Assembly (NCBI RefSeq): GCF_020667835.1
Contig: NZ_JAFMPR010000002.1
Coordinates: 1-64,000 of the forward strand
DNA from: Roseibaca sp. Y0-43
GTDB lineage: Bacteria > Pseudomonadota > Alphaproteobacteria > Rhodobacterales > Rhodobacteraceae
Reading direction: 5' to 3'
DNA: 64,000 nt
Shown here: piece by piece, positions 1 to 31,731 of the stretch
How the letters are laid out: each line of letters opens with the position of its first letter
Position numbering within the stretch: position 1 is the stretch's first letter
The notes under the pieces: generated by a model
Seen by the model: the letters and a program-made list of their open reading frames with translations, nothing else
What the model was told of the DNA's origin: nothing
The model's database searches: none
Made by a program: the position numbers and the translations under genes

Positions 1-193
1 AATCATACGAAACCCTGCAATCAAAGGCGACAGAAAACACCCATTTCCTACATAAAATCAGAATGTTGGGAGTTGTTCAGGACGAACTAATTATGTCGAA
101 TAGGCTCACTTCCATTGCAGACCTTTCGCTACTGTGCGTGCAGTTATACTTTCATATTCACTTAAGCATAGTCAGGAAACGATATATATCTTC
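1..193. other. AT-rich window edge, no gene seen
   Basis: A hand count of bases 1-180 gives about 41% G+C, against roughly 65% in the genes that follow. No convincing open frame, tRNA or repeat is visible. The stretch lies just downstream of the stop codon of the minus-strand ABC exporter gene. It could be the end of a horizontally acquired segment extending to the left, or simply an AT-rich intergenic region. Confidence 0.5.
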
Positions 194-1984
194 TCACGCC
201 GCCTGATCCGCCGTGAACTGCAACCTCGCCAGTCGCGCATATAGCCCCCCCTGCGCCACCAGCTCGTCATGCCGCCCTTGGGCCACGATCTGCCCGTCCT
301 CGAACACCACGATCCGGTCGGCTTGCTTTACCGTCGCCAAGCGGTGCGCGATGACGATGGTGGTGCGGCCTTGTGACAGGCGGTCGACCGCGCGTTGCAC
401 CAGTGCTTCCGACTCGGCGTCCAGTGCCGAGGTGGCCTCGTCCAACAGCAGGATCGGCGCATCGCGCAGGATGGCGCGGGCGATGGCGATGCGTTGGCGT
501 TGGCCCCCTGACAGCATCACGCCGCGCTCGCCCAGTTCGGTGGCGTAGCCCTTGGGCAGCTTCTCGATGAACTCATCGGCGGCGGCGGCGCGGGCGGCGG
601 CTTTCACCTCGTCATCCGTGGCACCGGGCCGCCCGAAGCGGATGTTCTCCAGCGCGGAGGTGGCGAAGATCATCGGGTCTTGCGGCACCAGCGCCATGAC
701 CTGCCGGAAATCGGTGCGCGCCATGTCGCGCAGGTCGATCCCGTCGATCATCACCGCGCCTTGCGCGGGGTCATAGAAGCGCATCAGCATTTGCAGGATG
801 GTCGTCTTCCCCGCGCCAGAGGGGCCGACCAGCGCCACCGTCTCGCCCGGTTGCACGTCGAGCGTGACGCCGTTCAGCGCGCGCTCGTCGGGGCGGGTGG
901 GGTAGGTGAAGGTCACATTCTCCAGCCGCACCGCGCCGCGCGCAGGGCGGGGCAGGGCGCGCGGGGCAGCGGGGTCCAGAACCGTGTCGATGGCGGTCAG
1001 AAGCTCGACCAGACGCTCGGTCGCACCCGCCGCGCGCTGCAATTCGGACCAGATTTCCGACAGCGCGCCCACCGACCCCGCAACGATCACGGCGTAGATG
1101 ACGAATTGCGCCAATTCGCCCGGTGTCATGGTGCCTGCCGACACGTCGCGCGCGCCGACCCAGAGCGTGCCAAGGATGCCGGCGAAGACAAGGAAGATGA
1201 CGACCACGGTCAGAAGCGCCCGGGTGAAGATACGTTTGCGCGCCACGTCGAAGCTGATCTCTGTCACGCGGTCGAATTCGGCGCGGCTGGCGGCCTCTGC
1301 GGTGTTGGCCTGCACGGTCTGCACGGCGCTGAGCGCTTCCGACGCGTTGCCGGAACTGGCCGCGATCCAGTCCTGGTTCTCGCGCGAGAGTTTGCGCAGC
1401 TTGCGGCCCATGACCACGATGGGCACGATGATGACCGGCACCATCAGCAGAACGAAGCCGGTCAGCTTGGCGCTGGTCAGCGCCAGCAGTGCCAGCCCGC
1501 CCAAGAGCATCAGTGCATTGCGCAGCGCGATGGATACCGAAGACCCGATCACCGACTGGATAAGCGTGGTGTCGGTGGTCAGGCGCGACAGCACCTCGCC
1601 CGTCATGATCTGCTCGTAGAAGGCGGGCGAGCGGTCGATAACGCGCGCGAAAAGCGCCTTGCGGATGTCGGCCACGATACGTTCGCCCAGTCGCGTGACG
1701 AAATAGTAGCGCAGGCCCGTGCCCAGCGCCAAAAGCCCCGCCAATCCAAGCGCCGCGCCGAAATACTGGTTCAGCATGACCATTTCGCGCGCTTCGAACC
1801 CGTCGACCACGCGGCGCACGGCCAAGGGCAGGGTCAGCGTGATCGCAGCCGTGGCCACCAGCGCCACGATCGCCACGACCAACAACCCGCGATAGGGGCG
1901 GATGAAGGGCCAAAGCCCGCGCAGGGCCGAAAGGTTCTTCGATTTGGCGCGCGCGTCGCGGGCGGCGGCGGTCGTATCTGTCAT
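194..1984 (-). CDS. ABC exporter, fused membrane and ATPase domains (MsbA/ABCB-like)
   Basis: A 596-residue half-transporter with six predicted membrane segments in residues ~30-330 followed by an ABC ATPase. Walker A GPSGAGKTT lies near residue 386, the signature LSGGQRQR near 488, and Walker B ILLLDEATSALD near 511, followed by a switch histidine in IAHRLAT. This is the type I exporter architecture that works as a homodimer in the inner membrane. The substrate cannot be read from sequence; lipids, lipid A or drugs are the usual cargo. The start is an ATG and most of the N-terminal 25 residues are cytoplasmic and polar. The gene stands alone, with pmtA upstream on the same strand across a GC-rich gap of about 100 bases. 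Confidence 0.9.
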   Translation of the reverse strand: MTDTTAAARDARAKSKNLSALRGLWPFIRPYRGLLVVAIVALVATAAITLTLPLAVRRVVDGFEAREMVMLNQYFGAALGLAGLLALGTGLRYYFVTRLGERIVADIRKALFARVIDRSPAFYEQIMTGEVLSRLTTDTTLIQSVIGSSVSIALRNALMLLGGLALLALTSAKLTGFVLLMVPVIIVPIVVMGRKLRKLSRENQDWIAASSGNASEALSAVQTVQANTAEAASRAEFDRVTEISFDVARKRIFTRALLTVVVIFLVFAGILGTLWVGARDVSAGTMTPGELAQFVIYAVIVAGSVGALSEIWSELQRAAGATERLVELLTAIDTVLDPAAPRALPRPARGAVRLENVTFTYPTRPDERALNGVTLDVQPGETVALVGPSGAGKTTILQMLMRFYDPAQGAVMIDGIDLRDMARTDFRQVMALVPQDPMIFATSALENIRFGRPGATDDEVKAAARAAAADEFIEKLPKGYATELGERGVMLSGGQRQRIAIARAILRDAPILLLDEATSALDAESEALVQRAVDRLSQGRTTIVIAHRLATVKQADRIVVFEDGQIVAQGRHDELVAQGGLYARLARLQFTADQAA

Positions 1985-24317: not shown

Positions 24318-24420
24318 CATTTTGGCGCGCCCCGCCCGAAAAAGCAAGAAAAACGGTTTAACTTACCCGCGCAGCCGCTAAGTTGCGCCGCAAGCACGAC
24401 ACACAGGAAGGATGCCCTTG

Positions 24421-25461
24421 ATGCGCAAAGTGAAACTTGGCCGAAGCGAGTTGATGGTGTCGGAATATTGCCTTGGCACCATGACCTATGGCAGCCAGAC
24501 CGACGAGGCCGACGCCCACCGCCAGCTGGACATGGCATGGGAGGCGGGGATCAATTTCCTCGATGCCGCAGAGATGTATCCGGTCAACCCGGTCACGCTG
24601 GAAACCGCGGGCCGGACCGAGGAAATCATCGGCCGCTGGCTGGCCAGCCGCAAACCCGCGGATGCCGTGATCGCCACCAAGATCACCGGGGCCGGGTCGA
24701 ACGCGGTCCCCGGCGGGGTCGAGATTTCGCCCGAGCGGATGCGCGCGGCGGTCGATGCGTCGCTTGCCCGCTTGCAGAGCGATTGCATCGACATCTACCA
24801 GCTGCACTGGCCCAATCGCGGCTCGTATCACTTCCGCAAAAGCTGGAGCTTCGACCCCTCTGGCCAGAACCGCACCGAGACGGTCGCCCATATGCGCGAG
24901 ATCCTGCATGTCGCGGCAGAGCTGGTTGCGGCGGGCAAGATCCGGCATATCGCGCTGTCGAATGAAACCGCCTGGGGCACCGCCATGTGGTTGCGGATCG
25001 CCGAGGAAGAGGGGCTTCCCCGCGTTCTGACCATGCAGAACGAATATTCGCTGCTGTGCCGCTATTTCGACCTGGACATGGCAGAGCTGTGCTTCAACGA
25101 GGAGATCCCGCTTCTGGCCTACACCCCCTTGGCGGCGGGGCTGCTGACGGGCAAATACGCCGGTAATGTCACGCCTGACGGCTCTCGCCGCTCACGCAAT
25201 GACGATCTGGGCGGGCGCATCACGGGCCGCGTGTTCGAGGCGGTCTCTGGCTATCTGGCGATTGCCAACGAGCATGGCATCGACGCGGTGCATATGGCCA
25301 TCAACTGGACCTTGACGCGGCCCGCGCCGACCTTGCCCATCATCGGTGCAACCACGTCTGACCAGCTTGCGCATCTGCTGAAAGGGGTGGATGTCGCGAT
25401 CACCCCAGAGATGCGCGCCGCCATCGACCAGATGAACCGCGCCATGCCGATGGTGTTCTGA
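24421..25461 (+). CDS. Aldo/keto reductase (Tas-like)
   Basis: A 346-residue NADPH-dependent aldo/keto reductase. The barrel signatures are present: GLGTMT-like YCLGTMTYGSQTDE, the catalytic Asp/Tyr in FLDAAEMYPVNPVT, the Lys in VIATKITG, and the His in DIYQLHWPNRG. NPVTLETAGRTEEIIGRWL and NRTETVAHMREILHVAAELVAAGKIRHIALSNETAWG place it close to Tas of E. coli. The physiological substrate is unknown. ATG at 24421 lies nine bases after AGGAAGG; an ATG at 24412 directly abuts that site and is less likely. The HAD gene follows by three bases. Confidence 0.9.
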   Translation: MRKVKLGRSELMVSEYCLGTMTYGSQTDEADAHRQLDMAWEAGINFLDAAEMYPVNPVTLETAGRTEEIIGRWLASRKPADAVIATKITGAGSNAVPGGVEISPERMRAAVDASLARLQSDCIDIYQLHWPNRGSYHFRKSWSFDPSGQNRTETVAHMREILHVAAELVAAGKIRHIALSNETAWGTAMWLRIAEEEGLPRVLTMQNEYSLLCRYFDLDMAELCFNEEIPLLAYTPLAAGLLTGKYAGNVTPDGSRRSRNDDLGGRITGRVFEAVSGYLAIANEHGIDAVHMAINWTLTRPAPTLPIIGATTSDQLAHLLKGVDVAITPEMRAAIDQMNRAMPMVF

Positions 25462-26616: not shown

Positions 26617-28084
26617 CCTGCTGCCATTCTTTGGCAAGGTTGCCGAAGCGGGTGAACTGGCCTTCGAATTTCAGCTCTACCGTGCCAATCGGCCCGTGAC
26701 GCTGCTTGCCGATGATGACCTCGGCCTTGCCATGGACTTGCTCCATCTTGGCCTTCCACGCGGCCATCTTGTCCAACTCATCCTCGCCCGGTTTTTCGCG
26801 CTCGCGGTAATATTCGTCGCGATAGACGAACATCACCACATCGGCATCCTGCTCGATAGAGCCGGATTCGCGGAGGTCCGACAGTTGGGGCCGCTTGTCC
26901 TCGCGCGATTCCACGTTCCGCGACAACTGCGACAGCGCGATGACGGGGATGTTCAGTTCCTTGGCGATGGCTTTCAGCCCTTGGGTGATTTCCGACACCT
27001 CTTGCACGCGGCTTTCCTTGGATGACCCGCGCAGCAGCTGCAAATAGTCCACCATCAGCACGTCCAGCCCATGTGTGCGTTTCAGGCGGCGGGCGCGGGC
27101 GGCGACCTGGCTAATGGGCAGGGCGGGCGTGTCGTCAATGTAAAGCGGGCAGGATTCGAGCGCCTTGGCGGCTTCGACAAAGCGGCGGAACTCGGCCTCT
27201 GACATGTCGCCCCGGCGGATTTGTTCGCTGGGCACCTCGGCGGCCTCAGAAAGGATCCGCGCGGCCAATTGCTCGGCGCTCATTTCAAGCGAGAAGAACC
27301 CCACCGCGCCGCCCTCGATCGCGCCCTCGGTCCCGTCGGGCTTGCGGCCTACGCGGTAGGCCTTGGCGATGTTGAAGGCGATGTTGGTGGCAAGCGAGGT
27401 TTTGCCCATCGACGGACGCCCCGCCAAGATCAGCAAATCCGACGGGTGCAGCCCGCCCAGCTTCTTGTCGAGGTCGATCAACCCGGTCGAGATACCCGCC
27501 AGCCCGCCGTCACGCTGATAGGCGGCATTGGCCATCTGCACGGCGTCCGTCACGGCTTTCAGGAAACTTTGAAAGCCGCGCTCGGCAACCCCTTGCTCGG
27601 CCAGTTTATACAGGCGCTGCTCGGCCTCGACGATCTGCTCTTTCGGCTCTGACGCCACGTCCATCTTTTGCGCCTGCGCGGCAATATCCTGTCCCAGCCG
27701 GATCAGGTCGCGCCGCACGGCAAGGTCGTAGATCATCTGCGCATAGTCGCGCGCCGCATAGGCCGAGATCGCCGCCGCCGCCAGGCGCGCCAGATAGGCC
27801 GCACCGCCCAGTTCCTTCAGCCCCTCGTCATCTTCCATGAAGGCTTTGAGCGTGACCGGCGAGGCCAGAGCATTCTTTGCGATCCGCGCGCTTGCAATGT
27901 CGAAAATGCGCTGATGGACGGGTTCATAGAAATGATCCGCCTTCACCAGCGACGAAATCCGGTCGTAAATATCGTTATTGACCAGAATCGCCCCCAGAAG
28001 CTGCTGCTCTGCTTCGATGTTATGCGGCAGCGTTTCTGCCGGACCCTCGGGGCGGATCGTGCTGATTTCGTTCATTTGGGCCAT
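26600..28084 (-). CDS. dnaB: Replicative DNA helicase
   Basis: A 494-residue hexameric helicase of the replisome. The N-terminal domain covers residues ~20-125 (LPHNIEAEQQLLGAILVNN), then a RecA-type ATPase with Walker A GRPSMGKTSLA near 221, the DnaB motif VMVDYLQLL and SQLSRNVESREDKRPQLSDLRESGSIEQDAD. DnaB unwinds the duplex ahead of the polymerase. The length is normal. A start at the second ATG, three codons in, is possible. Its 3' end overlaps the FosA-like gene; it is divergent from hisS. Confidence 0.96.
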   Translation of the reverse strand: MAQMNEISTIRPEGPAETLPHNIEAEQQLLGAILVNNDIYDRISSLVKADHFYEPVHQRIFDIASARIAKNALASPVTLKAFMEDDEGLKELGGAAYLARLAAAAISAYAARDYAQMIYDLAVRRDLIRLGQDIAAQAQKMDVASEPKEQIVEAEQRLYKLAEQGVAERGFQSFLKAVTDAVQMANAAYQRDGGLAGISTGLIDLDKKLGGLHPSDLLILAGRPSMGKTSLATNIAFNIAKAYRVGRKPDGTEGAIEGGAVGFFSLEMSAEQLAARILSEAAEVPSEQIRRGDMSEAEFRRFVEAAKALESCPLYIDDTPALPISQVAARARRLKRTHGLDVLMVDYLQLLRGSSKESRVQEVSEITQGLKAIAKELNIPVIALSQLSRNVESREDKRPQLSDLRESGSIEQDADVVMFVYRDEYYREREKPGEDELDKMAAWKAKMEQVHGKAEVIIGKQRHGPIGTVELKFEGQFTRFGNLAKEWQQDGDRF

Positions 28085-28258
28085 GCCACCGCTATATCTG
28101 GTAAGGCCAGAGTCTTAACGGATTCGGGCGGAAATCGCAAAATGTATAACTCTGTGGAAAACCGGGGGAGAAGCCGCGCGGGCCTTGCCCTTGCCCCGCG
28201 CAAGCCCTTGGGCTAAGGCCATTTGCGACAAGCACACCCCGAAACAGGAGCCCCGCAG

Positions 28259-29902
28259 ATGGCCAAATCCAAAGGCCCGAGCCGTCCGAAAGCGCAGACC
28301 CCGAAAGGGTTCCGTGATTATTTCGGCAGCGATGTGACCGCGCGCAAGGCAATGTTGGACAAGATCGCAGAGGTCTACCATCGCTACGGGTTCGACGCCT
28401 TGGAAACCTCGGCGGTGGAAACGGTCGAAGCCTTGGGCAAGTTCCTGCCCGATGTGGACCGCCCGAACGAGGGCGTCTTCGCATGGCAGGAAGACGACGA
28501 TTGGCTGGCTTTGCGCTACGACCTGACCGCCCCCTTGGCCCGCGTGGCGGCGCAATACCGGCAGGATTTGCCGACGCCCTACCGCCGCTTTGCCATGGGG
28601 CCGGTCTGGCGCAATGAAAAGCCGGGGCCGGGGCGGTTTCGGCAGTTTTATCAATGCGATGCGGATACGGTCGGGGCCGCGTCGGTGGCGGCTGACGCCG
28701 AGATTTGCGCCATGCTGGCGGATGCGTTGGAAGCCGTGGGGATTGCACGCGGCGATTACGTGATCCGGGTGAATAACCGCAAGGTGCTGAATGGCGTGAT
28801 GGAGGTTGCGGGGATACTGGACCCGGCGGACCCTTCGAAATTCGAGCATGAACGCGGGATCGTGCTGCGCGCCATCGACAAGCTGGACCGTCTAGGTGTC
28901 GATGGCGTGCGCGCGCTGCTCGGTGAGGGGCGCAAGGATGAGAGCGGGGACTTCACGAAGGGGGCAGGGCTGAACGATGCTGAGGCATACGTTGTATTAC
29001 AATTCTTCGACTTTGAAGCCCAAAGAGAACGCAGACTTCTGAACCTAGCAGATTTGGAAAGCCGTTCGGGCGGAAAGTTAGAAGAAAAGTCTCGCGAGGC
29101 TATACTCGCGGGCGACTATAGCAACACAGCCATTCCATATGAATGGCGTCAACGCCTTAACGATTTCACAATTTCGATCCTTCGCGGTCTCGTCGATGGT
29201 TCTGTTCCGGGTATTCCCGCGTCAGACGTGGGCCTAGAGGGTGTTGAAGAACTCGAACAAATCGCCTCTCTCCTCGCCGCCCAAGGCTACGGCCCCGACC
29301 GCATCCTGATCGACCCCTCGGTCGTCCGTGGCCTTGGCTATTATACCGGCCCGGTGTTCGAGGCGGAACTGACCTTTGAAATCCTCGACGAAAAAGGCCG
29401 TCCGCGTCAGTTCGGCTCTGTCGCAGGTGGTGGGCGCTATGACGATCTGGTCAAGCGCTTCACCGGCCAGACGGTGCCCGCGACCGGGGTCAGCATCGGG
29501 GTGGATCGCTTGCTGGCGGCGCTCGACGCCAAAGGTAAAGGGCCGGCAAAGGCGCAAGGCCCGGTGGTCGTGACCGTCATGGACCGCACCCGCATGGCCG
29601 ATTACATGGCGCTGGTGAACGAGTTGCGCCAAGCGGGCATCCGCGCCGAGATGTATCTGGGCAACCCCAAGAATTTCGGCAACCAGTTGAAATATGCCGA
29701 TAAGCGCGAAAGCCCCGTCGCCATCATCATGGGCGAGGATGAGGCGACAAAGGGCGTTGTGCAGGTGAAAGACCTGATCCTTGGCGCGAAGATCGCGGCG
29801 GAAGCCTCTGTCGAGGAATGGAAATCACAGGTTCAACAAGTCGAAGTGCCGCGCGCGCAGATGGTCGCCACCGTGCGCGAGATATTGGCCCGCTACGCAT
29901 GA
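28259..29902 (+). CDS. hisS: Histidine-tRNA ligase with enlarged low-GC internal segment
   Basis: A 547-residue class II aminoacyl-tRNA synthetase of the divergent alphaproteobacterial HisRS kind. Motif 2 region [21 protein letters not shown] lies near residues 115-135, the histidine-binding [15 protein letters not shown] near 358, and motif 3 [10 protein letters not shown] near 409. Between KGAGL (near 240) and GVEELEQIA (near 330) the chain is about 45 residues longer than relatives I remember. The DNA there falls to about 49% G+C with codons such as AGA, CTA, TTA and ATA. The frame is intact. ATG follows CAGGAG, and the stop overlaps the hisZ start (ATGA). Confidence 0.95.
28975..29270 (+). 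other. Low-GC patch inside hisS
   Basis: By hand count bases 28981-29220 are about 49% G+C (42, 52, 48 and 53% in successive 60-base lines), whereas the lines at 28861 and 29281 are both 68%. The patch remains in frame with hisS and encodes residues ~240-335. Inside it is a perfect hairpin, GCCATTC (29129-29135) and GAATGGC (29141-29147) with a five-base loop. Insertion or recombination with a foreign hisS are both possible. Confidence 0.8.
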
Positions 29903-30975
29903 GCCGCGCCGAGGACATAGCCCAAGACCTGCTGGCGCGGATGCTGGATGCAGGTGCTGCGCGCGTGACGCCCGACATTCTGCAACCGGCGGAAACGCTC
30001 TTGGACCTGTATGGCGAGGATATCCGCGCGCGTGCCTATGTCACCCATGACCCCGCGATGGGCGAGATGATGCTGCGCCCCGATTTCACCGTGCCGGTGG
30101 TGCAGGCGCATATGGCAGAGGGGGCTGAACCCGCACGCTACGCCTATGCCGGGCCGGTGTTTCGCAAGCAATCCAGCCTGCGCGCGCGGGAATATCTGCA
30201 AGTGGGTTACGAGGTTTTCGCCCGCGATATCGAAGCGCAGGCCGATGCCGAGGTCTTCGCATTGTTCGCGCGGCTGCTGGACGGCTACAACCTGCGCCCC
30301 GTGACGGGCGATATGGGCCTGATTACCGCCGCCGTGGCGGGGCTGTCCACGTCGGATCGGCGGCGCGCGGCGCTGTTGCGCCATGTCTGGCGGCCCAAGC
30401 GCTTTCGGGCGCTGCTTGAGAGGATGCGCGGGCAGGGCGCGCTTGCCACTGAGCGCGCGGCGCTGATCGCGCGGTTGCGCACGGCCCCGCCGGCTGTTCT
30501 GATCGAACAGGCCGGCCCCCATCTGGGCCTGCGGTCAGAGGACGAGATCGCCGAGCGCGTCGCCTCGCTTCTGGAGGACGCGGACGCAGCCCCCATTCCC
30601 GAGGGGCAGGCGCAAGCGCTGGAGGCGCTTTTGTCGCTCGCCGCACCCGCGCGCGCGGCGCTGAAGCAGATGCGCGCCATGGGCTGGGACGCGCTTGCGC
30701 CCGCGCTCGACCGGCTGGAGGCGCGGCTCGATGCGCTGGACGCGGCGGGGATCGACACCGAAACCTTGCCGTTCGAGGCAAGCTTCGGCCGCACCACGAT
30801 GGAATATTACGACGGCTTCGTCTTTGGCTTTACCGCGCGCGACGACCTGCCGCCCGTGGCCTCTGGCGGGCGCTATGACGCGCTGACGGCGGTTCTGGGC
30901 CAAGGCCGCGCCATCCCGGCGGTGGGCGGCGTCATCCGGCCCGACCTGTTGGCCAGTCTGGAGGGCGGGCAATGA
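29899..30975 (+). CDS. hisZ: ATP phosphoribosyltransferase regulatory subunit
   Basis: A 358-residue catalytically inactive HisRS paralogue that forms a complex with short-form HisG and makes it responsive to histidine. The class II synthetase-like fold is evident from [42 protein letters not shown] and the late [20 protein letters not shown]. Motif 3 is replaced by the non-catalytic [14 protein letters not shown] overlaps the hisS stop by four bases and its own stop overlaps hisG by four, so hisS-hisZ-hisG is one translationally coupled unit. Confidence 0.93.
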
Positions 30976-31685
30976 CCATCAAGCTGGGCGTGCCGTCCAA
31001 GGGGCGGTTGATGGAGCAGACATTCGAGTGGTTCGCCGACCGCGGGCTGACCTTGTCGCGCTCCGGGTCGGCGCGCGAATATGCGGGCGTTGTCGAAGGG
31101 GTCGACGGGGTGGAACTGGTGCTCTTGTCGGCCAGTGAAATCCCGCGCGAACTGGCGGCTGGGCGCATTCATCTGGGCGTGACCGGGTCCGACCTTGTGC
31201 GCGAAACCTTGCCGGACTGGCGTGCGTCAGTGGTCGAGGTCGCGCAAATGGGCTTTGGCCATGCCGACCTGATCTTGGCGGTGCCGGTCACATGGGTTGA
31301 TGTCGACACGCTCGACGATCTGGATGCGGCGGCGGCGGCCTTTCGCGCGCGTCACGGCTTTCGGCTGCGGATTGCCACGAAATACCACCGCCTTGTGCGC
31401 GACCATCTGCGCGCGCATGGCGTGGCCGATTACCAACTGGTCGACAGCCAGGGCGCGACCGAGGGCACGATCCGCAACCTGACGGCCGAGGCGGTGGCCG
31501 ACATCACCTCTACCGGCGAGACCTTGCGCGCGAACCACCTGAAAATCCTGCAAGGCCCGCCCATCCATAGCTCGCAAGCCACGCTGTTTGCCGCCAAAGC
31601 TGCATCATGGCGCGGGTCAGAGGACGCCTTGGGCTTGCTTTCAGCGCGTCTAGGCGTGATCTTGTCGTCAGAGGCCTTTGCCTAA
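30972..31685 (+). CDS. hisG: ATP phosphoribosyltransferase, short catalytic form
   Basis: A 237-residue short-form HisG, the first enzyme of histidine synthesis, joining ATP and PRPP. It lacks the C-terminal regulatory domain and depends on HisZ, encoded just upstream. Signature segments are LGVPSKGRLMEQTFEWF, GVTGSDLVRETLP and the PRPP loop DITSTGETLRANHLKIL. The length is slightly above the usual 210-230. The product is soluble and forms a hetero-octamer with HisZ in characterised systems. Confidence 0.95.
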   Translation: MTIKLGVPSKGRLMEQTFEWFADRGLTLSRSGSAREYAGVVEGVDGVELVLLSASEIPRELAAGRIHLGVTGSDLVRETLPDWRASVVEVAQMGFGHADLILAVPVTWVDVDTLDDLDAAAAAFRARHGFRLRIATKYHRLVRDHLRAHGVADYQLVDSQGATEGTIRNLTAEAVADITSTGETLRANHLKILQGPPIHSSQATLFAAKAASWRGSEDALGLLSARLGVILSSEAFA

Positions 31686-31731
31686 CCGCGCGTCGCGGCC
31701 CGGCAAATGGCAGGAGTGACGGGGTTTACGA

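Follow-up and report, generated by a model that had tools for sequence, protein, structure and literature searches.

Loci whose alleles are swapped by recombination are a known kind. In surface antigens and the specificity subunits of restriction enzymes, divergent alleles low in G+C lie between conserved flanks, are exchanged by recombination, and recur as types across species. Aminoacyl-tRNA synthetases are known as targets of natural inhibitors, as in the action of agrocin on LeuRS and of albomycin on SerRS. The locus described here, the histidyl-tRNA synthetase (HisRS) gene hisS, can be compared with both. It lies in a stretch of 64,000 nucleotides from Roseibaca sp. Y0-43 (Rhodobacteraceae; RefSeq assembly GCF_020667835.1, contig NZ_JAFMPR010000002.1, positions 1 to 64,000, forward strand), called the window below. 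Within hisS is a segment that shows the features of diversifying loci just listed. Unlike those loci, hisS encodes an essential cytosolic synthetase with no known antagonist, and ratios of nonsynonymous to synonymous divergence (dN/dS) above 1 are not seen in it. As with agrocin and albomycin, a synthetase would be the target of antagonism; however, those inhibitors are small molecules acting at the catalytic site, whereas in HisRS it is a separate helical domain that varies.

The segment is a hypervariable cassette, not an inserted mini-element, and homologous recombination in the flanks, which are conserved, carries its alleles from one species to another. What is new here is the presence of recombination-swapped alleles inside a cytosolic synthetase. 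A search of open-licence papers yielded no account of a HisRS insertion domain that is hypervariable, subscription papers lying mostly outside its scope.

The hisS gene and its insertion domain

The product of the window gene matches TIGR00442 (Histidine--tRNA ligase) as a whole protein with 376.9 bits, the cut-off being 286.75. The variable part lies in the insertion domain, between the conserved motifs KGAGL and DPSVVRGL. These are separated by 113 residues here and usually by 62, an excess of 51 where the preliminary description of this DNA had estimated about 45. The features concerned are:

28259..29902, + strand: hisS, histidyl-tRNA synthetase, 547 aa (open reading frame, ORF; TIGR00442, PF13393, PF03129)
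28772..29311, + strand: insertion domain, aa 172-351, nearly all helical, inside which the alleles differ (AlphaFold2 domain model)
28772..28972, + strand: ID1, the first half of the insertion domain, aa 172-238, of the usual type here
28973..29311, + strand: HV, the hypervariable second half, aa 239-351, 113 aa against the usual 62, with a G+C fraction at third codon positions (GC3) of 0.50
29012..29194, + strand: additional helical insert, absent from the usual form, about aa 252-312, boundaries approximate

An AlphaFold2 model of the insertion domain, built from 49 sequences, has a mean predicted local distance difference test score (pLDDT) of 89.4 and consists of helices but for a pair of short strands. 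Three of the helices, at about aa 252-270, 276-283 and 294-312, are made by the extra residues. The model of the whole protein is poor (mean pLDDT 63.9). The domain model matches the insertion domains of solved HisRS structures, including those of human, Nostoc and Elizabethkingia (4phc, 5w6m, 4g84, 3net and 6nhi; Z 8.1-9.2, root-mean-square deviation 2.6-3.2), over 110-118 of its 188 residues, the first unrelated match following at Z 4.4. The domain of the window protein is therefore the ordinary one plus an insert.

No known domain or RNA element was found that would give the segment an identity. Foldseek with the domain model returned nothing at E <= 0.001 in the PDB or among viral models. 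In Pfam, two of the 49 insertion domains matched tRNA-synt_His, and five other families gave one weak match each (best E 0.04). Searches of PHROGs and PADLOC gave single weak matches (best E 0.0058 and 0.027), which are not interpreted, and Rfam had no match at gathering score across 28000-31700. No Hint or intein splicing family appeared in the whole-protein Pfam and NCBIfam matches or, in Pfam, among the 49 insertion domains. A nested gene would have to span the segment, and the other ORFs of at least 30 aa overlapping 28900-29300, with 66, 32 and 132 aa, do not. The forms of the insert share frame residues at either end and are thus probably distant homologues rather than random insertions.

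Length and sequence of the segment in relatives

In all, 110 hisS loci were collected, 30 from genomes of the genus and 80 from a search of named relatives, with one genome per species. The 80 named loci are the best 80 of at least 594 and are therefore biased towards relatives of the window. Of the named relatives among the matches listed, Roseibaca ekhonensis and species of Roseinatronobacter come nearest; the HisRS proteins of R. ekhonensis and R. thiooxidans coincide with those encoded by G025 and G010, genomes of the same genus. A hisS match was absent from 3 of the 35 genus relatives searched. Parsing succeeded for 104 of the 110 loci. Those left out were L018, L024, L038, L071, L094 and L104, among which L024 and L071 show long segments and L094 and L104 usual ones. 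The parsed loci comprise 98 distinct hisS genes, of which 83, intact at both ends, entered the tree and the test of base composition.

Long forms of HV, with 79-117 aa, make up 40 of these 83 rows and fall into 32 families at 40% core identity (single linkage). Within the genus the long forms account for 17 of 23 rows. ID1 is also altered, with lower GC3, in L019, L022, L023 and L026-L029. A search of the class gave 29 loci, of which 14 were measurable, 12 unparsed and 3 of an older type. Thirteen of the measurable loci belong to other alphaproteobacterial families and have an HV of 62 aa in 12 cases and 66 aa in one; the fourteenth, from the same family, has 62 aa. Outside the Rhodobacteraceae, in Shinella zoogloeoides p1_Teo12 of the Rhizobiaceae (L140:3001-4608), HV has 110 aa and a GC3 of 0.36 against 0.90 in the flanks, the whole insertion domain being low (GC3 0.36-0.41), whereas another Shinella (L141) has an HV of 60 aa with GC3 0.88. 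Many very different segment alleles thus exist in the Rhodobacteraceae, and one was seen in Shinella.

Two observations concern the location and number of hisS genes. A 21.9-kb plasmid record of Cereibacter sphaeroides has an annotated hisS (NZ_CP015293.1:14008-15486), and the 1,479-bp length of the match fits the short form. One alphaproteobacterial genome seemingly carries two copies of this HisRS type (G117:C24:209577-211061 and G117:C51:219897-221384).

Exchange of alleles between species

Genes that are nearly identical in their flanks can carry very different segments. L008 and L010 are 98.3% identical in the flanks and identical in ID1, and their HV is 43% identical (48% over aligned residues). 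In L011 and L026 the corresponding values are 98.0% and 24%, and in L009 and L017 they are 97.5% and 25% (52% over aligned residues). HV identity was computed over the longer segment, so that pairs of unequal HV length score low. Among pairs with flanks at least 93% identical, HV is less than 50% identical in 17 of the 19 in which neither HV has 62 aa and in none of the 10 in which both do. All 31 mixed pairs, with 62 aa in one partner alone, also fall below 50%, a result largely forced by length because of the way identity was taken. Not every close pair differs, since L080 and L086 share their segment, as do L004 and L007. In L008 and L010 synonymous divergence (dS) is 0.21 and 0.31 in the two flanks but 1.66 in HV; divergence of HV beyond the synonymous divergence of the flanks excludes neutral drift in place for this pair.

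A tract of exchange is visible between L004 and L007. They share 1,220 identical bp spanning the segment, while the adjoining 300 bp are 88-89% identical upstream and 73-89% downstream (ungapped). An identical stretch between diverged flanks marks a cross-species recombination tract, here between two genomes of the genus.

The window allele shows a similar discord between flanks and segment. In the flank tree the window groups with L003 and L022 (support 99). Its flanks are 95.2% identical to those of L003, with HV at 41%, and 96.9% identical to those of L022, with HV at 27%, a value lowered by length because L022 has the 62-aa form. With L002, a less related member of the genus, the flanks are only 85% identical but HV is 80% identical. 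Two other genera have relatives of the window allele's core, at 53% and 44% identity, and this type occurs in 3 of 394 genomes including its own; the alleles in the two other genera are likewise low in GC3. When G025, the genome of L003, was searched, no relative of the window core was found at the same cut-off.

Over the flank tree of 83 rows the long or short state changes 23 times, against an average of 27.7 with shuffled labels. As few changes were seen in 24-29 of 500 shuffles, so that weak clustering of the state remains. At least 7 of the changes are forced by well supported branches of this tree, a quick one. The suggestion of the preliminary description that hisS had recombined with a distant hisS is thus borne out, as exchange of alleles by homologous recombination.

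Comparison with other genes and with the substrate tRNA

Variation of this kind is not general among the genes compared. In tyrS, examined in 19 genomes of the genus, no comparable interior region was found: the lowest interior window is at 0.68, and lower values occur only at unaligned ORF starts. In hisS, average pairwise identity falls to 0.05-0.06 over several windows (25 rows, gaps counted as differences). Syntenic ORFs were also compared in four sets of 78, 81, 22 and 22 pairs, the units being mechanical ORFs of at least 150 aa in all frames. The internal drop of hisS is the largest in three of these sets and ranks third in the set of 81. The competing drops in dnaB of G022 and in the P450 ORF 32423-34915 were set aside as belonging to over-long ORFs in which the domain starts late. 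That in the aldo/keto reductase ORF 24382-25458 probably comes from an over-long start too. Further internal drops sat in ORFs of low overall identity.

The preliminary description had also connected an altered insertion region with the recognition of tRNA-His; as a cause of the variation, such a link is not supported by the tRNA. The tRNA-His gene (L220:1498-1574, - strand) has G1:U72 and A73; the base before G1 is T, so that G-1 is not encoded. Of 36 genus genomes searched, that of the window included, 33 had a match, which is identical in 27 and 96-97% identical in the other six. The substrate tRNA-His therefore does not change with the HisRS alleles. Its form is the known alphaproteobacterial one, in that HisRS of the RRCH clade works with a tRNA-His that has A73 and lacks G-1 (PMC3937112). 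The enzyme family is the same, but the passages of that paper on the motif-2 loop and tRNA identity, which include a derived Gly123 in the tRNA-binding loop of motif 2, make no mention of a hypervariable insertion domain. The motif-2 loop of the window HisRS has Gly at 123 and 125 in the numbering of the window protein, from which that of the paper may differ.

Base composition of the segment

The preliminary description had drawn attention to the segment by its low G+C content, and this is real. At 48.3%, positions 28971-29210 are the lowest of 265 non-overlapping 240-bp windows (mean 64.6%, SD 4.0%), and 28980-29219 has 48.7%. With windows slid by 10 bases, lower values occur solely at starts 1-31. 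The parts of hisS that flank the segment have 62-64%, not the 68% throughout that had been supposed. GC3 falls from 0.78 in the N-terminal part of the gene to 0.50 in the segment and is 0.76 beyond it, in the C-terminal part. The reported cluster of rare codons also holds (AGA, CTA, TTA and ATA as named there, with AGG and GTA added; 7 of 85 codons in the segment core versus 4 of 462 elsewhere in hisS, Fisher P = 3e-4). The hairpin is as described but carries no significance, because some 0.26 similar hairpins are expected per 300 bp from the 56 present in the 64 kb:

29129..29147, + strand: perfect 7-bp hairpin (GCCATTC, GAATGGC) with a 5-nt loop (CATAT), at chance frequency, no role assigned

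Low GC3 goes with the unusual forms in general. In forms other than 62 aa, HV is lower in GC3 than the flanks in 41 of 41 rows (means 0.54 vs 0.79, Wilcoxon P = 9e-13), whereas 62-aa forms (n = 42) show little difference (0.75 in HV, 0.78 in the flanks, P = 0.07). Exceptions occur on both sides: the drop is small (<=0.15) in L059, L063, L067 and L106 among the former, and exceeds 0.15 in L020, L021, L022, L028 and L110 among the latter. The low G+C thus recurs across the genus, which the preliminary description had named among the findings that would refute it; this amounts to half a refutation, for the segments that carry the low G+C differ.

That description had called the segment foreign-looking. 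Recent import is not a sufficient account of the low G+C: L001 and L002 both have an HV GC3 of about 0.50 at an HV dS of about 1.8. Rare recombination within the segment could be the cause, with GC-biased conversion or codon selection then acting less there, as could repeated entry from AT-richer sources. As a separate matter, the start of the window (1-280) is even poorer in G+C, with 44.6% over 1-240.

A phage-borne hisS

One phage-like contig, IMGVR_UViG_3300025759_000462 (17.5 kb, 41% GC), carries a Rhodobacteraceae-type hisS adjoining tyrS (L142:7923-10995). The tyrS was assigned by TIGR00234, and its matched part recurs with 100% identity in two other viral contigs, L246 and L247. Further ORFs of the phage-like contig look thyX-, PhoH- and exonuclease/polymerase-like from their letters alone. 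GC3 of the phage hisS is 0.79 in the N-terminal part, 0.54 in ID1 and 0.73 in the second half, and its ID1 is nearest to the altered forms L027, L029, L026 and L028 (56-60%). The contig shows that such a phage took up hisS. This is a lead and does not imply a reason for the uptake.

What maintains the alleles

Related alleles are constrained, with dN/dS below 1. In HV, dN is 0.131 and dS 1.77 for L001 and L002 (dN/dS about 0.07), and 0.023 and 0.53 for L080 and L086 (about 0.04). Between L001 and L002 the segment changes faster than the N-terminal part of the protein but no faster than the C-terminal part (dN 0.131 vs 0.027 and 0.130). Two marks of diversifying loci are thus present in hisS, allelic divergence above that of the flanks and exchange by recombination. 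As dN/dS above 1 is missing, hisS is not filed as a proven member of the hypervariable loci under diversifying selection. It works like a diversifying locus through replacement of whole alleles.

We think there is about an even chance that the window segment represents one of many alleles of a folded and hypervariable helical insert in the insertion domain of alphaproteobacterial HisRS, and that the diversity of this insert is kept by selection from an antagonist that binds HisRS. The exchange of alleles is observed; the selective agent we infer. On this view, recognition of HisRS through the patch would make exchange advantageous. The best candidates would be a phage protein, a toxin or a peptide, given that the changes affect the length and sequence of a protein-sized surface and that one phage has a HisRS of its own. 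Such an antagonist would bind HisRS through the surface of the insert, and a cell that swapped the helical patch would escape it while tRNA charging continued. Rare alleles would then be favoured and diversity maintained, and the low G+C would mark an allele pool that rarely recombines inside the segment or comes from AT-richer sources. Somewhat short of an even chance, in our estimate, is the more specific conjecture that HisRS is a battleground, on which an undescribed phage factor, toxin or peptide directed against Alphaproteobacteria acts via the insertion domain and domain exchange is the escape. A phage with its own Rhodobacteraceae-type HisRS and TyrRS would perhaps escape likewise.

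Several observations weigh against selection by an antagonist. No antagonist has been identified. Short forms are common (43 of 83 rows), so that the insert is not required. Among 17 HV pairs no dN/dS above 1 was found (computable ratios 0.04 to about 0.45; 5 pairs saturated and 1 identical), and the equally low GC3 of L001 and L002 at high dS, given above, also tells against it. No gene is inserted beside hisS, as judged by the distance to hisG: in 74 of 76 named relatives a match to it starts 1.03-1.28 kb past hisS, whether the form is long or short, and the remaining two lack the sequence. The phage hisS has the usual HV of 62 aa. Three pattern-based hisS scans of viral contigs returned only the contig described, and in an annotated phage collection every HisRS is distant (18 records, each below 60% identity).

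Four other explanations were weighed. The site might simply be permissive, the tip of the insertion domain tolerating many small helical folds, so that imported alleles are swapped without benefit or harm. The occurrence of long and short forms across the family and the evident homologous recombination in hisS agree with this. However, replacement is concentrated here in comparison with other ORFs and tyrS, 12 of the 13 loci measurable in other families keep the length of 62 aa, constraint acts on related alleles, and drift in place alone is excluded wherever HV has diverged beyond the synonymous sites of its flanks. We therefore regard a merely permissive site as rather unlikely. Less probable still is docking of a variable cellular partner or RNA to the insert, each allele co-evolving with its own partner. 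Although the confident helical fold and the dN/dS below 1 would be expected of a docking surface, transfer of segments between species would break the match to the partner, the obvious partner, tRNA-His, hardly varies, and hisS has no inserted neighbour gene.

Two explanations remain. One is escape at the level of DNA, in which the stretch would have been altered to destroy the target of a site-specific element, a homing nuclease or a spacer of clustered regularly interspaced short palindromic repeats (CRISPR). The change is indeed local within hisS, and a CRISPR spacer against hisS has been discussed for Pelobacter (PMC2923632). Yet synonymous changes would suffice for escape of this kind, while here length and amino acids change in a kept frame, and neither notable repeats nor an RNA family was found, which makes it very improbable. 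The other, offered in the preliminary description, is a mini-element inserted in frame, like the palindromic elements of Rickettsia. Like these, the segment adds about 150 bp of coding sequence in frame to a housekeeping gene, and the low G+C and the one hairpin would suit such an origin. It differs from them in having no second copy, no palindromic core and no sequence common to its alleles. A translated search of the genome with E up to 10 found hisS itself as the sole match. A long palindromic core was absent: apart from the chance-level hairpin there were just an imperfect palindrome of 15 nt and, outside the core, a 12-nt pair, and repeats do not go beyond chance. The 40 long forms fall into 32 families with shared frame residues, and in some relatives the adjoining helices are replaced too. 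A Rickettsia-type element was accordingly rejected for want of related genomic copies and a long palindromic core, and we give a mini-element of this sort next to no chance.

If selection by an antagonist is the right explanation, HisRS is an essential synthetase that evolves in the manner of an antigen. Conservation throughout is expected of core translation enzymes, and the swapping, among close relatives, of segments diverged beyond the synonymous sites of their own gene points to strong, unrecognised selection on HisRS. If the selective force is an antagonist, the alleles form a ready panel for finding it. Gene trees of hisS, and calls of foreign genes from low G+C, can be misled by such cassettes.

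Neighbouring genes

Upstream of hisS lies a divergent dnaB, and downstream are hisZ and then hisG, both of which serve as context only:

29899..30975, + strand: hisZ, 3' neighbour overlapping the hisS stop (ORF, start inferred; named by position and sequence)
30972..31685, + strand: hisG (named by position and sequence)
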